DNA from: Lamprocystis purpurea DSM 4197
GTDB lineage: Bacteria; Pseudomonadota; Gammaproteobacteria; Chromatiales; Chromatiaceae
NCBI RefSeq assembly: GCF_000379525.1
Contig: NZ_KB902492.1
Span: 19,161-83,160, forward strand
Length of the DNA: 64,000 bases
Direction: 5' to 3'
This document shows, one piece after another, positions 42,255-53,550 of the stretch. Made by a program: the position numbers and the translations under genes. The notes under the pieces were generated by a model that was not told the origin of the DNA, did no database searches, and saw only the letters and a program-made list of their open reading frames with translations. How positions within the stretch are numbered: the stretch's first letter is position 1; each line of letters begins with the position of its first letter.

Positions 42255-43460
42255 ATGGAAACACTGCGGGACGGTACTGACGTCCTCTTCATTTTGATCG
42301 GCGCCGTGATGGTACTCGCCATGCACGCCGGCTTCGCTTTCCTGGAGTTGGGGACGGTTCGCGCCAAGAATCAGGTCAATGCCCTGGCCAAGATCATGAG
42401 CGACTTCGCCGTCTCCACCCTCGCCTACTTTTTTGTCGGTTACTGGATCGCTTACGGTGTCAACTTTTTCTCGAATGCCGCCTCGCTGCAGGTCGAACAT
42501 GGCTTTGCTCTGGTCAAATTCTTCTTTCTCTTGACCTTTGCCGCGGCCATTCCGGCCATCGTCTCCGGCGGCATCGCCGAGCGCGCACGCTTCTACCCCC
42601 AATTATTCGCCTCACTGCTCATCGTCAGCCTGCTCTATCCGTTCTTCGAGGGCATGGCCTGGAACGGGAATTTCGGCATGCAGGCCCTCATCGAAAGCAC
42701 CTTCGGCAAACCCTTCCACGACTTCGCCGGATCGGTGGTGGTCCACGCCGTCGGCGGCTGGATCGCCCTGGCCGCCGTGCTCCTGCTCGGGCCGCGCCAG
42801 GGACGCTACCGGGCCGACGGCGGCGTGACCGCTCACCCGCCGTCCTCGATCCCCTTCCTCTCGCTCGGCGCCTGGACCCTGACCGTCGGCTGGTTCGGCT
42901 TCAATGTCATGTCGGCCCAGACCGTCGAGGCGGTCAGCGGGCTGGTCGCGGTCAACTCGCTGATGGCGATGGTCGGCGGCATCCTGGCGGCACTGGTCAT
43001 CGGCAAGAACGACCCCGGCTTCCTGCACAACGGACCGCTGGCCGGCTTGGTCGCGGTGTGCGCCGGTTCGGACCTGATGCACCCGATCGGTGCCTTGGTG
43101 ACCGGCGCCGTGGCAGGCGGCCTGTTCGTCTATGCCTTCACCCTGACTCAGAACAAGTGGCGCATCGACGACGTGCTGGGTGTCTGGCCCCTGCACGGAC
43201 TCTGCGGACTCTGGGGCGGCATCGCGGCGGGAATCTTCGGACTCACGGCGCTGGGCGGCGTCGGCGGGGTAACCTTCGGCGGCCAGGTGGCAGGGACCCT
43301 GATCGGGGTCGGCATCGCCTTCGGCGGCGGCTTCCTGATCTATGGCGGGATCAAGCTGCTCATGGGGCTGCGGCTCAGTCAGGAAGACGAATACATCGGC
43401 GCCGACCTGAGTATCCATAAGATCACGGCGCAACCCGACTACAATCGCGGCGAAGTCTGA
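42255..43460 (+). CDS. amt: Ammonium transporter
   Basis: 401 residues with eleven membrane helices. Family signatures DFAVSTLAYFFVGYWIAYG, FAGSVVVHAVGGWIALAAV (with the pore His) and GVWPLHGLCGLWGG with the second pore His are intact; no extra signal peptide precedes helix 1. A GAGGTG Shine-Dalgarno lies 9 bases before the ATG. There is no glnK next to it, which is uncommon for amtB. MITE-like repeats lie on both sides. Confidence 0.94.
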   Translation: METLRDGTDVLFILIGAVMVLAMHAGFAFLELGTVRAKNQVNALAKIMSDFAVSTLAYFFVGYWIAYGVNFFSNAASLQVEHGFALVKFFFLLTFAAAIPAIVSGGIAERARFYPQLFASLLIVSLLYPFFEGMAWNGNFGMQALIESTFGKPFHDFAGSVVVHAVGGWIALAAVLLLGPRQGRYRADGGVTAHPPSSIPFLSLGAWTLTVGWFGFNVMSAQTVEAVSGLVAVNSLMAMVGGILAALVIGKNDPGFLHNGPLAGLVAVCAGSDLMHPIGALVTGAVAGGLFVYAFTLTQNKWRIDDVLGVWPLHGLCGLWGGIAAGIFGLTALGGVGGVTFGGQVAGTLIGVGIAFGGGFLIYGGIKLLMGLRLSQEDEYIGADLSIHKITAQPDYNRGEV

Positions 43461-43472
43461 CCGCGCCTGCCC

Positions 43473-43498
43473 GCGGGGCGCGCCCGGCCGCGCCCCGC
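43473..43498 (+). terminator. Hairpin after the ammonium transporter
   Basis: 10-bp perfect stem GCGGGGCGCG with CGCGCCCCGC and a 6-base loop, 12 bases after the amt stop codon. No U-tract follows, so this is a probable but not certain intrinsic terminator. Confidence 0.5.
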
Positions 43499-43524
43499 AC
43501 CCCGCCCACCATTGCTCCGGACCT

Positions 43525-43615
43525 GTGGGAGCGGCGTCCCGCCGCGATGAGGTCGGGCGTGTCACCGCCGTTCGAGATCACCGCGGCACCGCATCGCGGC
43601 GGGACGCCCCTCCCA
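43525..43615. repeat. MITE-like element with terminal inverted repeats, copy B
   Basis: 91 bases bounded by GTGGGAGCGGCGTCCCGCC(GCGAT) and its complement with one mismatch. Its interior is the complement of copy A's interior (GCGGTGCCGCGGTG on the minus strand), so the two copies are inverted with respect to one another. Confidence 0.8.
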
Positions 43616-43772
43616 CGGGGGCCATACATCGTCCGGAAGAGTGCCGGACCTTGCGTCTGACCGGGCATGCGCGTAAAGAATGCGGCCTCTTTGTCACCGC
43701 AACCGCTGGCCCTGAAGGCCAACGCACCCAGGTCGGCGCCACCTCCGACCGTCCAGCGAGGGCGCTCCTATC

Positions 43773-44000
43773 ATGCGCGGCCTTTACCCACTGCACCCGA
43801 CCGCCGAGTTCCTCGATCCGGTCACGCTGCTGTATCGCGCCGCAAGAGTGGTCTATCAGGCATTCCGCTGCTTTCGTGCACTGATTGGCGGGGACAAAGC
43901 GATCGTCTTCCGGGAGTGCCACCTCCTGGCGCTCGCGCTCGTACTTGTCGGCGCCGTCCTTCTCGTCGCGGTGCTGACCGATGTGCTTGATCCCGCGTAG
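43773..44000 (+). CDS. Possible small membrane protein (75 aa)
   Basis: The frame encodes a basic N-terminal half (LLYRAARVVYQAFRCFRALI) and one C-terminal membrane helix (LLALALVLVGAVLLVAVL). No clear ribosome site and no recognised family. An overlapping frame on the other strand is longer but looks like low-complexity shadow. This is a weak call. Confidence 0.3.
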   Translation: MRGLYPLHPTAEFLDPVTLLYRAARVVYQAFRCFRALIGGDKAIVFRECHLLALALVLVGAVLLVAVLTDVLDPA

Positions 44001-44089
44001 AATGCGGCGAGTAGGTGAGGACGGCGGGATTTCTCTCCCCTTTGCCACCCCATCATTCGTTCGCCATAGCCACCCGGACGGAGGTCTCC

Positions 44090-45289
44090 ATGTCGCAGTC
44101 GAATCGGAATTCCGATCGTTCCGTTCCCTCGCTTCAACAGGAAATCATCCTCGCCTTGGCGGCTATTGCGACGGTGCTGCTTGGATTCGGCCTGGTCACG
44201 GACATCCGCACCGAGGGGCCCGGGACCCTTGTGCTCTTCATCGGCTTCGCACTGAGCACCGTCGCGGGCGCAAGCGCCCTCCGCATCGCCCGCGAGCGTC
44301 CGATGGGACGCAAACTCTGGGCGGGACTACTGGGCGTGCTGATGCTGCTGTTCGGGCTCGGAGGGGCATTGTTGCTGCTGGTGCTTCTCTTCCTGGCCTT
44401 TAATGGGGGCTTCGGTGTCGGGGGGCGCCCGCTGCGGGCACAAGGTCGCCGCCTGCTACCGGAACTGCGCGTCGGCAGCGACTGGACCCGCGGCGAGCGT
44501 CCGGACACCTCCGGTCTGGACAGGGCGACCCGGTCCGCCCTGGAGACACTGTGGCTGCAGGACGCACAAGCGGAGCACGCGAGCATACCGGCGTTCGCGC
44601 GGATCAGTTGGCTGCTGGCCGCGACCGGGGCTCCGCCGAACCTGATGGAGCGCGCCCATCAGGCCGGCCTGGAGGAGATCGACCATGCCCGGCGCTGCTT
44701 CGCCCTGGCGGCCGGCTACGGCGAGCGCTCCCACAGCGTCCGACCGATGCCGGACTTGCTGCGCGGTATCGTGGATGTCGCCGGGGACCCGCGGGTGACC
44801 CTTGCAGTGGAGAGTCTGCGGGATGGCTGCCTGCTGGAGGGCTTCGGCGCCGATATGGCCGCGGCCGCTGCCGTCGAATGTCGGGACCCGGCGGTACGGG
44901 ACCTGTTGGAACGGATCGCCCTGGAGGAGCGCTCCCACGCCGCATTTTCCTGGGACCTGCTGGCCTGGGCACTGCAAGCCGGGGGTGAGCCGGTACGCGC
45001 GGCCGTCGCCGAGGCGGCCCAGGGGCTGATGCGGATACGACGGCCCATCGCCACCAGCGCGCAGACCACGATCCTGGTATCCGCGGCCGACCCTCGGCGC
45101 CTGCGCGAGCACGGGCGACTGCCCGATACCGAGTGGGTCCCGTTGTGGGACAAGCGCCTGGCCGAGACCGCCGCCCGGGTGGCGGGGCTGCTGCACGCAG
45201 AAACTGAAGAGGAAAAGAGGGAAAAGAGGGAAAAGAGGGAAAAGAGGGAAAAGAGGGGAGAAGCGGCCAGGCTCAACGAAATCGTTTGA
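44090..45289 (+). CDS. Ferritin-like diiron protein with two N-terminal membrane helices
   Basis: 399 residues from the ATG at 44090, with GGAGG just upstream. Two hydrophobic helices (about 20-45 and 70-105) are followed by a ferritin-like four-helix domain with repeated carboxylate/histidine motifs: DAQAEHASIPAF, GLEEIDHARRC, LLEGFGADMA and ALEERSHAAFSW, which fit a diiron site. Function unknown; the group is annotated only as ferritin-like. The C-terminus is a low-complexity (KRE)n stretch encoded by five copies of a 9-base repeat. Confidence 0.8.
   Translation: MSQSNRNSDRSVPSLQQEIILALAAIATVLLGFGLVTDIRTEGPGTLVLFIGFALSTVAGASALRIARERPMGRKLWAGLLGVLMLLFGLGGALLLLVLLFLAFNGGFGVGGRPLRAQGRRLLPELRVGSDWTRGERPDTSGLDRATRSALETLWLQDAQAEHASIPAFARISWLLAATGAPPNLMERAHQAGLEEIDHARRCFALAAGYGERSHSVRPMPDLLRGIVDVAGDPRVTLAVESLRDGCLLEGFGADMAAAAAVECRDPAVRDLLERIALEERSHAAFSWDLLAWALQAGGEPVRAAVAEAAQGLMRIRRPIATSAQTTILVSAADPRRLREHGRLPDTEWVPLWDKRLAETAARVAGLLHAETEEEKREKREKREKREKRGEAARLNEIV
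45212..45257. repeat. In-frame 9-bp tandem repeat
   Basis: Five copies of AAAAGAGGG near the 3' end of the ferritin-like gene. Each unit adds one Lys-Arg-Glu triplet, so copy-number change keeps the frame and only alters the length of a charged tail. Confidence 0.85.
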
Positions 45290-47908: not shown

Positions 47909-48259
47909 TCAGCCCTCCATACCATGCACTGCCGCAACGGCAATGTGGTAAGAATCGATTTCCGCTTTAAGCGGTAACGCACCCCGGGCAATTAGCGCCT
48001 TACCAAGAATCCTAACTTCTTCCGTAGTTGTAAGTTCCGAGATGTCTTCTAGAGCGGTCATGCGGCGGCGGGCAGCGTCCGGATGACCGAGCCCCGCCTC
48101 AGCCAAAACAAATTCCGAAACGAACAGATCAAACATAGTGCGATGACTTTCCCACCACTCAACAGTTGCATTTTGGTTTGCCGCAACTCGAATGTCATTG
48201 CTCGGCCGCGATGTGAGATAGCTGACAATTGAGGTTTCCAAATAAACGGTTGGCTTCAA
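47909..48259 (-). pseudogene. PIN-domain (VapC-like) toxin, C-terminally truncated
   Basis: 116 residues: MKPTVYLETSIVSYL (acidic residue 1), FVSEFVLAEAG (residue 2) and AEIDSYHIAVAAVHGM (residue 3). Relatives continue for about 25 more residues with a LLTWNCxHIANA block; here the frame ends EG-stop just after HGM. The last acidic residue and helix are missing, so nuclease activity is doubtful. The antitoxin-like ORF survives directly downstream. Confidence 0.7.
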
Positions 48260-48697: not shown

Positions 48698-49291
48698 TCA
48701 TGCTTTGATTTCAACGCCGGCAGCCTTTATTAGCTGAAGCATTCGACCAATGTTGGTATTAGCAAGCGTCGTTGTCAATTTTGGCAAGACGGCAGCCAAG
48801 AGTTCTCGCATGTCGAGAACCTTTATTGGATTGCCGCCAAGTGCCGCACGAAAGGCAGAATTGGTTTCCCAGAGGGACTTATCGCCATGGATCTTCGTGA
48901 CTGCTGTAATATAAGTGAACTGCCTTGTGCCTGTAACTTCCTCAAGTCGCTCAATAAACGCTGCCGACCACTTTGGACTTACAAGTTCTCTGAATGGCTT
49001 CCATCTCTCTCGTCCAGCGACTATTTTATTTTGGGCGATTGCTTCAATTTCAGCTTTAGGGTTGAACCCTCCTTGCCAACTCTTGCAACTTACGGCGACT
49101 ACCTTGTCCAAACCTATTCGTAAAGGGTGGATCCCGACAACATCAATGTCACTGTGATTCGAGTCCGATTGCTTTACATAACCGTCATGGGTCTCGTTTG
49201 GCCGGAACTTTATGTTGTGCTGAACAAAGTAGCCCTCGTGAAGCAAGTACTCTTCCACAAGTTGCTCAAGTATGTCTTCCTTGGTAGACAT
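48698..49291 (-). CDS. Restriction-endonuclease-like protein
   Basis: 197 residues. The middle has a PD-(D/E)xK-like arrangement: SDIDVVGIHP followed by VVAVSCKSW, and the N-terminal EDILEQLVEEYLLHEGYFVQ helix is typical of Mrr- or VSR-like nucleases that act on DNA. No methyltransferase or helicase partner adjoins it. The lower GC and isolated position suggest recent acquisition. The specific family is not certain. Confidence 0.6.
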   Translation of the reverse strand: MSTKEDILEQLVEEYLLHEGYFVQHNIKFRPNETHDGYVKQSDSNHSDIDVVGIHPLRIGLDKVVAVSCKSWQGGFNPKAEIEAIAQNKIVAGRERWKPFRELVSPKWSAAFIERLEEVTGTRQFTYITAVTKIHGDKSLWETNSAFRAALGGNPIKVLDMRELLAAVLPKLTTTLANTNIGRMLQLIKAAGVEIKA

Positions 49292-49966
49292 GGCGCGGTG
49301 CGAATATTTGCGGTCTAACGTGCAGCCTAAAGCGGCGCGCGCCTCTGATGAGCTAGCGAATTAGCACGACGCCTGTGGCGCGCGCTCGCTTTTTGGCGTA
49401 TGTTAGCGCTTTTCATGCTGAAGATAGGACATTAAGTCTTTCGCAATATTTGTGCATAACGTCGGCGTCCTGATTATCGAGGGATCGGGTACTGGAGCCG
49501 ATTAGCCACGGAGCGGTCCATGGCATCCAACCGGTATCACATAGTCTGTCCGTCCAAGACAAGTCGGGCCAAATTGGATTAGGATGCAAATACTCGAGAT
49601 AGCATTAGGATGCTAGTGCTCTACGTTGCGTTAGTAACGGTTCAATAACAAGGTGAACAGGTATTTTTTTCGCAAGCGACTGTTTTATCTAGCATGTGGT
49701 TAATTGATGCATATAACCTGTTCTTGAGCCGTCACTTAGGACGTTAGTGGTCTAGACTGCACCCGGTCTAGCACTCAAGTATCCTATCGCACCCGCACCG
49801 CGCCGCCAAGAGGGCGGCTCGCCGATTTGTGTCCACTCCCCGTACGTTACCCTCGATCATCGCTCCGACCACAACGGCTCTCATGGGATCGGGTCAGCTC
49901 GGTAAGCGGCGCCAAGGCGTTGATCATCGTTCCGGCGGCCTTGATCGTAATCCCGGCCAGCGGCGT

Positions 49967-50740: not shown

Positions 50741-51661
50741 ATGAGCGAACCCCAACCCGCGTCGACCGGCGTTCTTTCCGCCGCGGCGCCGACCGATCGC
50801 CGCCCGCGCGTGCTGGTCATCGTTGACCGGGCGGCAGGTACCGACACGCCGGTGCCGACCGCGGACGCGCTGAGCGCCGACGGGTTTCGGCTGGAACCGG
50901 CGCGCGGCCTGCCGGATGGGTTGACCGTGCTCGCTCAGGAACAGGTGGACTGCGTCTTGCTGGACCTGCCCGGTGTCGATGCCCAGGGGTACGAGGCCCT
51001 GGCCCGGCTGCGTACGCAGCGCCCGGACGTGCCGGTGGTGGTGCGCACACCCGACTCCGGCGAGGATCTCGGTCCGGCACTGATCGCGGCGGGTGCCGAG
51101 GATGCCGTGTGCCGCGGCGATGGCCAGGCGCTCGCGCGCGCCCTGCGCCACGCGATTGCCCGCCAGCGGGCGCGGCAGCGGACCGCGGCGGCGGAACTCG
51201 AGGTGCAGGGGGCGCGCGAACGGCGCGACGTGGGACGTCTGCTCGACCCGAACCGCCACCCCGGAGAGGCCGCGCGCATCTATGGTGCCGCAACCCTGCG
51301 CGAGACCGACCCGGACCTCTTCGATGAGATCGTCGGTGACTATGTGGAGCTGATCAAACATACGGCCGAGGGCCAGGTCTACCGCACCGAACCCGCAACG
51401 GTCCGCAGCGCCCGGCCACTGGCCGAACACCTGGGGTTCCTGGGGGCCGGCCCGCGCGATACCATCGAGATTCACACCGAAGCCCTGATCCGCCTGGACC
51501 GGGAACTCAGTACCGCCAACCAACGCCAGATTGCCCTCGAGGGACGTATCGTCGTCCTGGAACTTATGGGGTATCTCGTGAGCTACTATCGCCGTTATTA
51601 TCTGAACAGCATGCCCCGCGCGCACGACTTGGGCGGCGCCGTCGAGCGTCAGCCGGACTAA
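50741..51661 (+). CDS. KaiA-like protein: degenerate receiver domain plus KaiA-C/RsbU-N-like helical domain
   Basis: 306 residues. Residues about 22-140 form a CheY-like receiver: VLVIVDRA, CVLLDLPGVDAQGYEAL with the phospho-acceptor Asp75, and GAEDAVCRGD where the usual lysine is Arg125. A linker is followed by a helical domain (about 185-288): LFDEIVGDYVELIKH, RDTIEIHTEALIRLDRELS and EGRIVVLELMGYLVSYYRRY. The spacing and the IEIHxE motif resemble the C-terminal four-helix bundle of KaiA, which binds the KaiC tail, and the related RsbU N-terminal domain. It is 13 bases upstream of kaiB and followed by kaiC. A KaiA role is inference. Confidence 0.7.
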   Translation: MSEPQPASTGVLSAAAPTDRRPRVLVIVDRAAGTDTPVPTADALSADGFRLEPARGLPDGLTVLAQEQVDCVLLDLPGVDAQGYEALARLRTQRPDVPVVVRTPDSGEDLGPALIAAGAEDAVCRGDGQALARALRHAIARQRARQRTAAAELEVQGARERRDVGRLLDPNRHPGEAARIYGAATLRETDPDLFDEIVGDYVELIKHTAEGQVYRTEPATVRSARPLAEHLGFLGAGPRDTIEIHTEALIRLDRELSTANQRQIALEGRIVVLELMGYLVSYYRRYYLNSMPRAHDLGGAVERQPD

Positions 51662-51674
51662 TACCGGACCGCGC

Positions 51675-52019
51675 ATGACCAACCACACCGGACTCACCAG
51701 CACCATGTCAAGCACCATGGGTAAGTATCTCCTCAAGCTCTATATCACCGGGCGCACGCCGCAAGGGAACCGTGCCATCGCCAACCTGCAACGGATCTGC
51801 CAGGCCGAACTGGACGGGCAGTATGAGATGGAAGTCATCGACGTGATCGAGGACCCGCAGGCGGCGGAAGATGCCCGCATCATCGCCACACCCACCCTCA
51901 TCAAGGCCCTGCCGCCACCGCTGCGACGCATCATCGGGGATCTGTCGAATAAGGAAAAAGTATTGATTGGATTAGATTTGTCGTCTCCTGGAGACGAGGA
52001 GGGGCACCGCCGTGGCTGA
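51675..52019 (+). CDS. kaiB: Circadian clock protein KaiB
   Basis: 114 residues, or 100 from the alternative Met15. The thioredoxin-like KaiB fold signature is clear: LLKLYITGRTPQGNRAIANL, VIDVIEDPQAAEDARIIATP, and PPLRRIIGDLSNKEKVLIGL, the last block nearly identical to cyanobacterial KaiB. The fold-switching C-terminal half is complete. The stop overlaps the kaiC GTG start by 8 bases. It would bind the KaiC CI ring and oppose KaiC phosphorylation. Confidence 0.95.
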   Translation: MTNHTGLTSTMSSTMGKYLLKLYITGRTPQGNRAIANLQRICQAELDGQYEMEVIDVIEDPQAAEDARIIATPTLIKALPPPLRRIIGDLSNKEKVLIGLDLSSPGDEEGHRRG

Positions 52020-53550
52020 ACCCGCACAGCGACCTTCGGTGACCAAGTCGCCGACCGGCATCGAAGGTTTCGACCATATCAGCCTGGGCGGCGTACCGAC
52101 CGGACGCACCACCCTGGTGTCGGGTTCCGCCGGCAGCGCCAAGACCATCTTCGCCGCCCAGTTTTTGGCGGAGGGCATCCGCCAGTACGACCAGGCCGGG
52201 GTCTTCGTCACCTTCGAGGAGTCCGCCGCGGATATCCGCGCCAACGTGTCCTCGCTGGGTTGGGACGTGGCCGACTGGGAAGCGGCCGGCAAATGGGCCT
52301 TCGTCGACGCCGCTCCCCAACCAGGGGATGAGGTGGTCGTGAGCGGCGCCTTCGACCTGGGTGCCTTGGTGGTCCGGGTGGAGGCCGCGGTGCGGCGCAC
52401 CGGGGCGGCACGCGTCGCGATCGACTCGCTGGGAGCGGTCTTTTCCCGCTTCGAGAACGAGGTGATCGTCCGCGCCGAGCTGTTCCGGCTGGCCTCGGCG
52501 CTGAAGGGTATGGGTGTCACCTCGGTGATGACCGCCGAGCGCACCAGCGAGTACGGTGAAATCAGCCGCCACGGGGTCGAGGAATTCGTCACCGATAACG
52601 TGGTGATCCTGCGCAACGTGCTGGAGGGCGAGAAACGCCGCCGCACGGTCGAGGTCCTCAAGTTCCGCGGCACCATCCATCAGAAAGGCGAATACCCGTT
52701 CACCATCATGCCGGATCAGGGGATCGTGGTGATCCCGCTGTCCGCCATCGAACTGGATCAGCGCTCCTCCTACACCCGCATCTCCTCCGGCAACGCGGAG
52801 TTGGATGCCATGTGCGGCGGCGGCTTCTTCCGCGATTCGGTGATCCTGGTCTCCGGGGCCACCGGCTGCGGCAAGACCCTGACCTCCACCGAGTTCATCG
52901 GCGGCGGCGTCGACAACGGCGAGCGTTCGCTGCTCATGGCCTTCGAGGAAAGCCGCGATCAGTTGAGCCGCAACGCCTCGGGCTGGGGCCGCGACTTCGA
53001 CCGTTATGAACGCGAGGGTCTGCTCAAGGTGGTCGCGCTCTACCCCGAGTCCGCCGGGCTGGAGGACCATCTGATCCGCATCAAGCGGGAGATCGACTCG
53101 TTCAAGCCCAACCGGGTGGCGGTCGACAGCCTCTCCGCCCTGGAGCGGGTCAGCAGCATCAAGGGTTTCCGCGAGTTCGTCATCAGTTTGACGAGCTTCA
53201 TCAAACATCAGGAGATCGCCGGGCTCTTCACCGCCACCACCAACAGTCTGATGGGCGGCGAGTCGGTGACCGAGACCCACATCTCCACCATCACCGACGC
53301 CATCATCCTGCTGCGTTATGTGGAAATGTTCGGTGAGATGAAACGCGGACTCACGGTGTTGAAGATGCGCGGCTCGGCCCACGACAAGGAGATCCGCGCC
53401 TTCACCATCGACGGCACTGGGATGCACATCGGCGCCGCCTTCCGCAACGTGACCGGCATCCTCGCCGGGCACCCGCGTCATGTGCCCTCCGCCGAAATCG
53501 AGCGGCTGGACCAGCTCTTCCGCCCGGAGGGGCCGCGCGGCAGGGACTGA
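52012..53550 (+). CDS. kaiC: Circadian clock ATPase/kinase KaiC
   Basis: 512 residues with both RecA-like domains. CI has Walker A GSAGSAKT (38-45) and the catalytic glutamate pair in VTFEES (69-70). CII has Walker A GATGCGKT (282-289), catalytic FEES (311-314) and the autophosphorylation pair Ser425-Thr426 in THISTITD, equivalent to S431/T432 of Synechococcus. A C-terminal A-loop and tail of normal length (AAFRNVTGILAG onward) is present, the segment KaiA binds. GTG start with AGGAGG ten bases upstream. All residues needed for the ATPase and phosphorylation cycle are visible. Confidence 0.96.
   Translation: MAEPAQRPSVTKSPTGIEGFDHISLGGVPTGRTTLVSGSAGSAKTIFAAQFLAEGIRQYDQAGVFVTFEESAADIRANVSSLGWDVADWEAAGKWAFVDAAPQPGDEVVVSGAFDLGALVVRVEAAVRRTGAARVAIDSLGAVFSRFENEVIVRAELFRLASALKGMGVTSVMTAERTSEYGEISRHGVEEFVTDNVVILRNVLEGEKRRRTVEVLKFRGTIHQKGEYPFTIMPDQGIVVIPLSAIELDQRSSYTRISSGNAELDAMCGGGFFRDSVILVSGATGCGKTLTSTEFIGGGVDNGERSLLMAFEESRDQLSRNASGWGRDFDRYEREGLLKVVALYPESAGLEDHLIRIKREIDSFKPNRVAVDSLSALERVSSIKGFREFVISLTSFIKHQEIAGLFTATTNSLMGGESVTETHISTITDAIILLRYVEMFGEMKRGLTVLKMRGSAHDKEIRAFTIDGTGMHIGAAFRNVTGILAGHPRHVPSAEIERLDQLFRPEGPRGRD

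Follow-up and report, generated by a model that had tools for sequence, protein, structure and literature searches.

The window analysed here, a stretch of 64,000 nucleotides (contig NZ_KB902492.1), carries three genes on the plus strand in the order gene 1, kaiB and kaiC, whose reading frames are open as stated in the original prediction (Table 1). In Pfam, their products match Response_reg (E-value 5.5e-8), KaiB (9.6e-28) and KaiC (3.1e-116), respectively. Based on sequence comparison and a predicted structure model, the three genes very probably form a kaiA3-kaiB3-kaiC3 operon, which is predicted to encode a protein clock.

Gene 1 belongs with the KaiA3 proteins according to its sequence. 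As in KaiA3 of Synechocystis sp. PCC 6803 (PMC11372060), its product combines an N-terminal receiver, which retains the acceptor aspartate (Asp75), with a KaiA-like C-terminal domain, and the gene is located upstream of kaiB3; kaiA3 genes are usually upstream of kaiC3 as well. In contrast to Synechocystis, kaiC3 is part of the same operon here. From the 45 proteins that a search with the gene 1 protein yielded at E ≤ 0.001, 22 were aligned. Used as a probe against named genomes, this alignment matched 154 stretches, 119 of which encode kin, and the best 80 loci were kept. These include Synechocystis salina, Microcystis and Roseiflexus, the genera of which appear in the KaiA3 paper (PMC11372060), as well as Crocosphaera. 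The cyanobacterial comparison was made with the proteins of S. salina and not with those of strain PCC 6803 themselves. The rows of a 60-row family alignment were chosen by hand; 11 of 77 C-terminal domains (near-duplicates, chosen by hand) were left out of the domain alignment, and locus L038 was left out of the KaiA3 alignments because it has no open frame at the start of the match.

Single-sequence searches of Pfam, NCBIfam and the PDB with the gene 1 protein returned only the receiver with a match of any strength. The best 60 matches listed for the family profile against the PDB were receiver-type proteins, as were the 50 matches listed for the full-length model. Since these full-length searches returned receivers, the C-terminal domain was modelled separately. 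KaiA-C was its best fold, which bears out the KaiA-C-like helical bundle proposed for the end of the protein. The four-helix domain typical of KaiA3 is thus found in the predicted model, while it is weak in sequence searches and in Foldseek. A match to KaiA-C or RsbU-N, suggested earlier as a check, was not obtained in Pfam for the gene 1 protein alone, but was obtained in family members (KaiA-C in 8/60, RsbU_N in 7/60, at E ≤ 10). The protein is not a canonical KaiA by the curated cut-off of PF07688, to which it had no match at an E-value of 10, whereas the KaiAs of six cyanobacterial genomes score 209.5–215.4 bits.

A KaiA-like C-terminal domain was also observed in longer frames of 470–655 amino acids at six loci (L087, L088, L096, L100, L101 and L102), upstream of kaiB in all six, with L102 cut off within kaiB. 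The match to the gene 1 protein stops short of the receiver in these frames, and two further kin (P0019, P0023) have PAS domains in place of the receiver. The sensor half of KaiA3-like proteins thus seems to have been swapped.

The KaiC of the operon is a KaiC3 and not a KaiC1 or KaiC2, as judged from alignment and tree. Its identity to the three KaiCs of S. salina is 66% (KaiC3, L118), 56% (KaiC1, L119) and 39% (KaiC2, L126). L119 was assigned to KaiC1 on account of the canonical KaiA nearby on its contig and L126 to KaiC2 on account of its Ser-Ser sites and tail. This leaves L118 for KaiC3, an assignment also based on its tree position beside kaiA3-linked KaiCs. In a quick KaiC tree (14 of 84 KaiCs left out; KaiCs matching fewer than 400 residues were outside the 84), the operon KaiC falls into the KaiC3 part, where it groups with KaiCs of other Chromatiaceae. 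A branch of 60 rows that includes both this KaiC and KaiC3 of S. salina has a support of 99 in this quick tree, by the Shimodaira-Hasegawa-like approximate likelihood ratio test (SH-aLRT) only. The proposed Ser-Thr pair and both catalytic glutamate pairs are present, as is Thr420. The claim that both P-loops are kept holds for the regular CII loop, while in the CI loop the second glycine is replaced by alanine. Alanine or serine is common at this position among the KaiC3s compared (S. salina KaiC3 has GTAGSSKT), so that the variant is no sign of damage. The A-loop, NVTGILAG, is devoid of charged residues.

The type of KaiC bears on whether the system could instead be an hourglass timer as in Rhodobacter and Rhodopseudomonas, with KaiB and KaiC sensing ATP/ADP and gene 1 merely tuning the level. 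The timers published for purple bacteria belong to this type (PMC10076222, PMC11372060), and earlier work interpreted the A-loop of KaiC3 as indicating a kinase activity independent of KaiA (PMC5520375). However, these timers, with which the original prediction compared the operon, use KaiC2, characterised by Ser-Ser sites and a C-terminal coiled-coil extension of about 50 amino acids; the operon KaiC has Ser-Thr sites and no such extension. What it shares with the KaiB-KaiC2 hourglass of Rhodobacter (PMC10076222) is the setting in a purple bacterial Kai system, and a KaiC2 cluster is present elsewhere in the host genome. In addition, KaiA3 raised the phosphorylation of Synechocystis KaiC3 (PMC11372060). 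We regard the hourglass as possible but doubtful.

Table 1 Features of the kai operon in the window
Feature	Position	Strand	Remarks
kaiA3 (gene 1)	50741..51661	+	306 aa; receiver-like domain and KaiA-like C-terminal domain; kin of Synechocystis salina KaiA3 (L074)
Receiver domain of KaiA3, approx. residues 20–145	50798..51175	+	pseudo-receiver as defined in PMC12632262
KaiA-like C-terminal helical domain, residues 168–306	51242..51658	+	family profile, predicted model
kaiB3, open frame as listed	51675..52019	+	likely true start ATG at 51720 (99 aa)
kaiC3	52012..53550	+	512 aa, GTG start; 8-base overlap with kaiB; without KaiC2-type C-terminal extension
KaiC CI P-loop, variant GSAGSAKT	52123..52146	+	form common in KaiC3s
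KaiC CII P-loop GATGCGKT	52855..52878	+	sequence alignment
KaiC Ser425-Thr426 phosphorylation pair	53284..53289	+	S431/T432 of Synechococcus, numbering of PMC5520375
KaiC A-loop region FRNVTGILAGHP, KaiC3-like	53440..53475	+	alignment; PMC5520375

The 13-base gap reported between gene 1 and kaiB is probably wrong. An extra base in the close relatives L025 and L026 throws the ATG corresponding to 51675 out of the kaiB frame, while the ATG at 51720 (MGKYLL...) is common to all four aligned loci, so that kaiB probably starts there and the gap is 58 bases. The 8-base overlap between kaiB and kaiC is unaffected by this revision.

The same three-gene order recurs in other Chromatiaceae, as the original prediction had proposed to check. 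Among the best 80 loci, 67 have the order A-B-C on one strand, eight (seven Microcystis, one Synechocystis) have A-B and enough sequence left for further genes, two stop at a contig end and three are without KaiB. At L055, L077 and L090, the 6 kb that follow the KaiA3-like gene contain no match to kaiB or kaiC. Five genera outside the cyanobacteria are listed for KaiA3 in PMC11372060; the names among the best 80 loci also comprise Chromatiaceae, Nitrospirota, Elusimicrobiota, Planctomycetota, Zixiibacteriota, Ignavibacteriota, Armatimonadota and one Asgard archaeon.

In the host's own family (194 genomes), 42 genomes have some KaiC at an E-value of 1e-60, and in 11 of these it is of the KaiC3 type (73–100% identity). 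KaiA3 was found in 12 genomes at 1e-10. Eleven of them are the genomes with KaiC3; the twelfth, G130, has a weak match (52 bits) interrupted by a stop, and the 7 kb retrieved for this locus contain neither kaiB nor kaiC. A second, KaiC2-like KaiC is present in 10 of the 11 KaiC3-bearing genomes; KaiA3 co-occurs with KaiC3 and not with the KaiC2-like KaiCs. The set is broken in the genus mate G005, in which kaiA3 is matched in two different frames and the match to kaiC breaks off 52 residues in. Culture-collection kin with the same set are Rhabdochromatium marinum DSM 5261, Halochromatium roseum DSM 18859, Lamprobacter modestohalophilus DSM 25653 and Thiorhodococcus mannitoliphagus DSM 18266. 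This distribution can be set against a reading without a clock, in which a stress or metabolic switch is formed and gene 1 acts on another partner like the N-terminal domain of RsbU. The co-occurrence with KaiC3, the position of gene 1 kin before kaiB and kaiC across phyla and the KaiA-C fold all argue against such a switch, which we consider improbable.

Genome G182 of the family features two KaiBs and an intermediate KaiC (59% identical to the operon KaiC), without a KaiA3 match. Its locus L166 (G182:C25:39249-41581) reads kaiB-kaiB-kaiC, with a phosphosite pair of Ala-Ser in place of Ser-Thr, and the next gene after kaiC has a GGDEF motif and no KaiA3 match.

The term pseudo-receiver applies to receivers in which at least one of five residues is missing (PMC12632262). 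The gene 1 receiver keeps Asp29, Asp75 and Thr103, while two of the five are lost, with Val28 replacing the first acidic residue and Arg125 the active-site lysine. The lysine is absent from all genus mates compared, and the acceptor aspartate is absent in four (Glu in L026, Thr in L027, Asn in L028 and Ser in L170); exceptions to this aspartate are also listed for KaiA3 in PMC11372060. All five residues are kept in Rhabdochromatium, Halochromatium, Lamprobacter and Thiorhodococcus. The S. salina receiver differs from that of gene 1 in keeping both acidic residues. Several cyanobacterial KaiA3s have the lysine one residue past the expected site (S. salina has leucine at the site and lysine adjacent), which makes its loss less sure there than in the window's clade, and the Synechocystis receiver is called genuine in a 2026 review (PMC13421787).

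In the clade with decayed receivers, divergence is faster in this domain than in the C-terminal domain. Among 25 pairs picked by hand, the gap between the two domains is 19–47 points in six pairs of this clade and 6 points in the near-identical pair of the gene 1 protein and P0002. For twelve comparisons between lineages keeping Asp and Lys, it ranges from -4 to +13; it is 17–27 in three cyanobacterial pairs and 12–21 in three mixed pairs. This pattern bears on the view that gene 1 encodes a phosphorylated response regulator of the ordinary kind that lies upstream of kaiBC by chance. Response_reg is the sole Pfam domain above the cut-off in gene 1, and kin are annotated as 'response regulator' or 'CheY-like'. 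However, the receiver is the decayed half of the protein and the C-terminal domain the conserved one (50% versus 97% between the gene 1 protein and P0004, 42% versus 66% for P0007), and we judge a chance neighbour to be very improbable.

A histidine kinase on the same strand within 2 kb was detected at 24 of 31 loci keeping Asp and Lys versus 2 of 23 others (54 scorable loci; Fisher p 3.9e-7 when kin are treated as independent). 'Intact' in this count refers to Asp and Lys only, and some loci in this class, such as L060 and L072, are without one of the other residues. Of 81 rows, 18 were left out because the match ends short of the receiver, eight because of too little flank and L078 because it was classed as lacking a receiver. 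Kinases were detected by tblastn with three query domains from these loci, by which divergent kinases may be missed. Against the trend, L052 and L091 have a kinase although the receiver is not intact, and seven intact loci have none. Much of the association is due to shared descent, since there are only two independent pairs on supported branches and six on the best tree, and it is not significant phylogenetically (sign test, median p 0.5). The loss of the receiver lysine suggests that kinase input to KaiA3 is gone in this genus, and a parallel to canonical KaiA, which also has a pseudo-receiver, is possible; the latter binds quinones (PMC12632262). We treat both receiver decay and neighbouring kinases as leads. 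The kinases beside many receivers keeping Asp and Lys are candidates for the cognate kinase, described in PMC11372060 as not yet identified.

A PAS-GGDEF-EAL gene is located directly upstream of kaiA3 on the same strand in two Thiodictyon metagenome-assembled genomes (L027:3633-5900, L028:1134-3332) and in a genus mate (L170:8438-11158), and Rhabdochromatium has a PAS-GGDEF gene in this position. In the two Thiodictyon loci and L170, this gene takes the place of an upstream kinase. A link between clock and cyclic di-GMP via the upstream PAS-GGDEF-EAL gene is possible.

For Synechocystis, KaiA3 was reported to raise and KaiB3 to lower KaiC3 phosphorylation, the three proteins forming a complex, with a rhythm of approximately 24 h that is damped in vitro and stable in cells (PMC11372060). 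For the operon, the self-sustained oscillator suggested in the original prediction is hypothetical. Directly supported for the operon are kinship, gene order, the KaiA-like fold (predicted model), KaiC3-type phosphosites and the missing KaiC2-type tail extension. By analogy, KaiA3 would hold the KaiC3 tail (as in canonical KaiABC) and drive KaiC3 autophosphorylation (as in Synechocystis). KaiB3 would bind later and trap KaiA3, letting KaiC3 dephosphorylate, where the counteraction follows Synechocystis, the trapping canonical KaiABC and the roughly daily period Synechocystis. In this genus, the KaiA3 receiver probably takes no phosphate from a histidine kinase any more and may set KaiA3 activity otherwise or not at all; timing would therefore follow ATP/ADP or a ligand. 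It is likely, by the same analogies, that the three genes keep daily time in the host. A wider scenario, in which KaiA3 originated as a histidine-kinase-driven clock input and Thiodictyon and Lamprocystis run a true KaiABC-type circadian oscillator, with a KaiA arm that was detached from its kinase and became a pseudo-receiver clock protein by the very route which cyanobacterial KaiA followed on its own, is tentative and rather unlikely.

KaiA is thought to be the part that turns an hourglass into an oscillator. A KaiA3 set in a probable phototroph thus bears on whether true circadian clocks exist outside the cyanobacteria, and the cultured relatives with the same genes would permit a test for such clocks. 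The operon is real and its host a probable purple sulfur bacterium, while the KaiA3B3C3 system itself is already known. It was described in 2024, for the purple bacterium Rhodospirillum rubrum among others (PMC11372060; also PMC10931921), which makes the earlier statement that purple bacteria have kaiB and kaiC but no kaiA outdated and lowers the surprise. Rhodospirillum rubrum is likewise a purple phototroph with KaiA3 adjoining kaiBC; it is outside the Chromatiaceae and is reported to have a PAS histidine kinase before its kai clusters (PMC10931921), whereas a search of the 4 kb to each side of the operon detected neither a histidine kinase nor a GGDEF gene (tblastn, query domains from kin loci). 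Compared to Synechococcus elongatus KaiABC, the operon shares gene order, C-terminal fold, Ser-Thr phosphosites and a pseudo-receiver N-terminal domain; it differs in the limited identity of its KaiC to KaiC1 of S. salina, the missing Pfam KaiA match and an N-terminal domain still recognised as an ordinary receiver.

Within open-licence PubMed Central, no report of a kaiA3 set across Chromatiaceae was found, although the supplement of PMC11372060 may list Chromatiaceae KaiA3, and no paper combines kaiA, kaiB, kaiC and Chromatiaceae. Thiodictyon appears with kaiC there in PMC5944118 only, in whose kai passages no word beginning with kaiA was found. For Chromatium okenii, the part of PMC6374484 that deals with it states that no complete kaiABC relay was found.

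The host, whose assembly is 6.9 Mb in size, is a likely member of the Chromatiaceae by its named close kin (Chromatiaceae bacterium ppb02, Lamprocystis, Thiodictyon) and has two photosynthetic reaction-centre genes, in line with the purple sulfur bacterium suspected earlier. Its genome features a second set, kaiC2-kaiB-kaiB (L169, G000:C112, about 42300-44800), which resembles the kaiCBB of Thiodictyon syntrophicum that adjoins a diguanylate cyclase (PMC5944118). This KaiC2 has Ser-Ser sites and about 574 amino acids. In contrast to Synechocystis, no KaiC1-like second KaiC was found in the genome at 1e-40. Because this cluster is separate, two Kai systems probably run side by side in the host. 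At L171 (G000:C123:40716-40805), a kaiB fragment of approximately 43 residues directly precedes a co-oriented histidine kinase-receiver gene and is perhaps the remains of a kaiB-kinase output pair. The genus mates G001 and G003 have an extra full kaiB match beyond those in their two kai clusters.

The genes flanking the operon look unrelated to kai genes. Downstream are a solute-binding protein and an ABC transporter ATPase. On the upstream side are an open frame at 48701-49330, for which Pfam gives no match, and a PIN-domain gene at 47912-48259.

The archaeal locus L043 (G218:C1:463261-467549), from a Candidatus Helarchaeota metagenome-assembled genome, reads kaiA3-kaiB-kaiC followed by a second kaiB-kaiC. 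The contig is probably truly archaeal, because many Ras-type GTPase matches flank the kai set, the nearest ones on the two sides being some 8 kb and 30 kb away. Since 13 of 14 control genomes have Ras-family matches as well, these are no proof of archaeal origin. KaiA3 matched in one of 227 genomes of this phylum, and the set is likely a transfer from bacteria.
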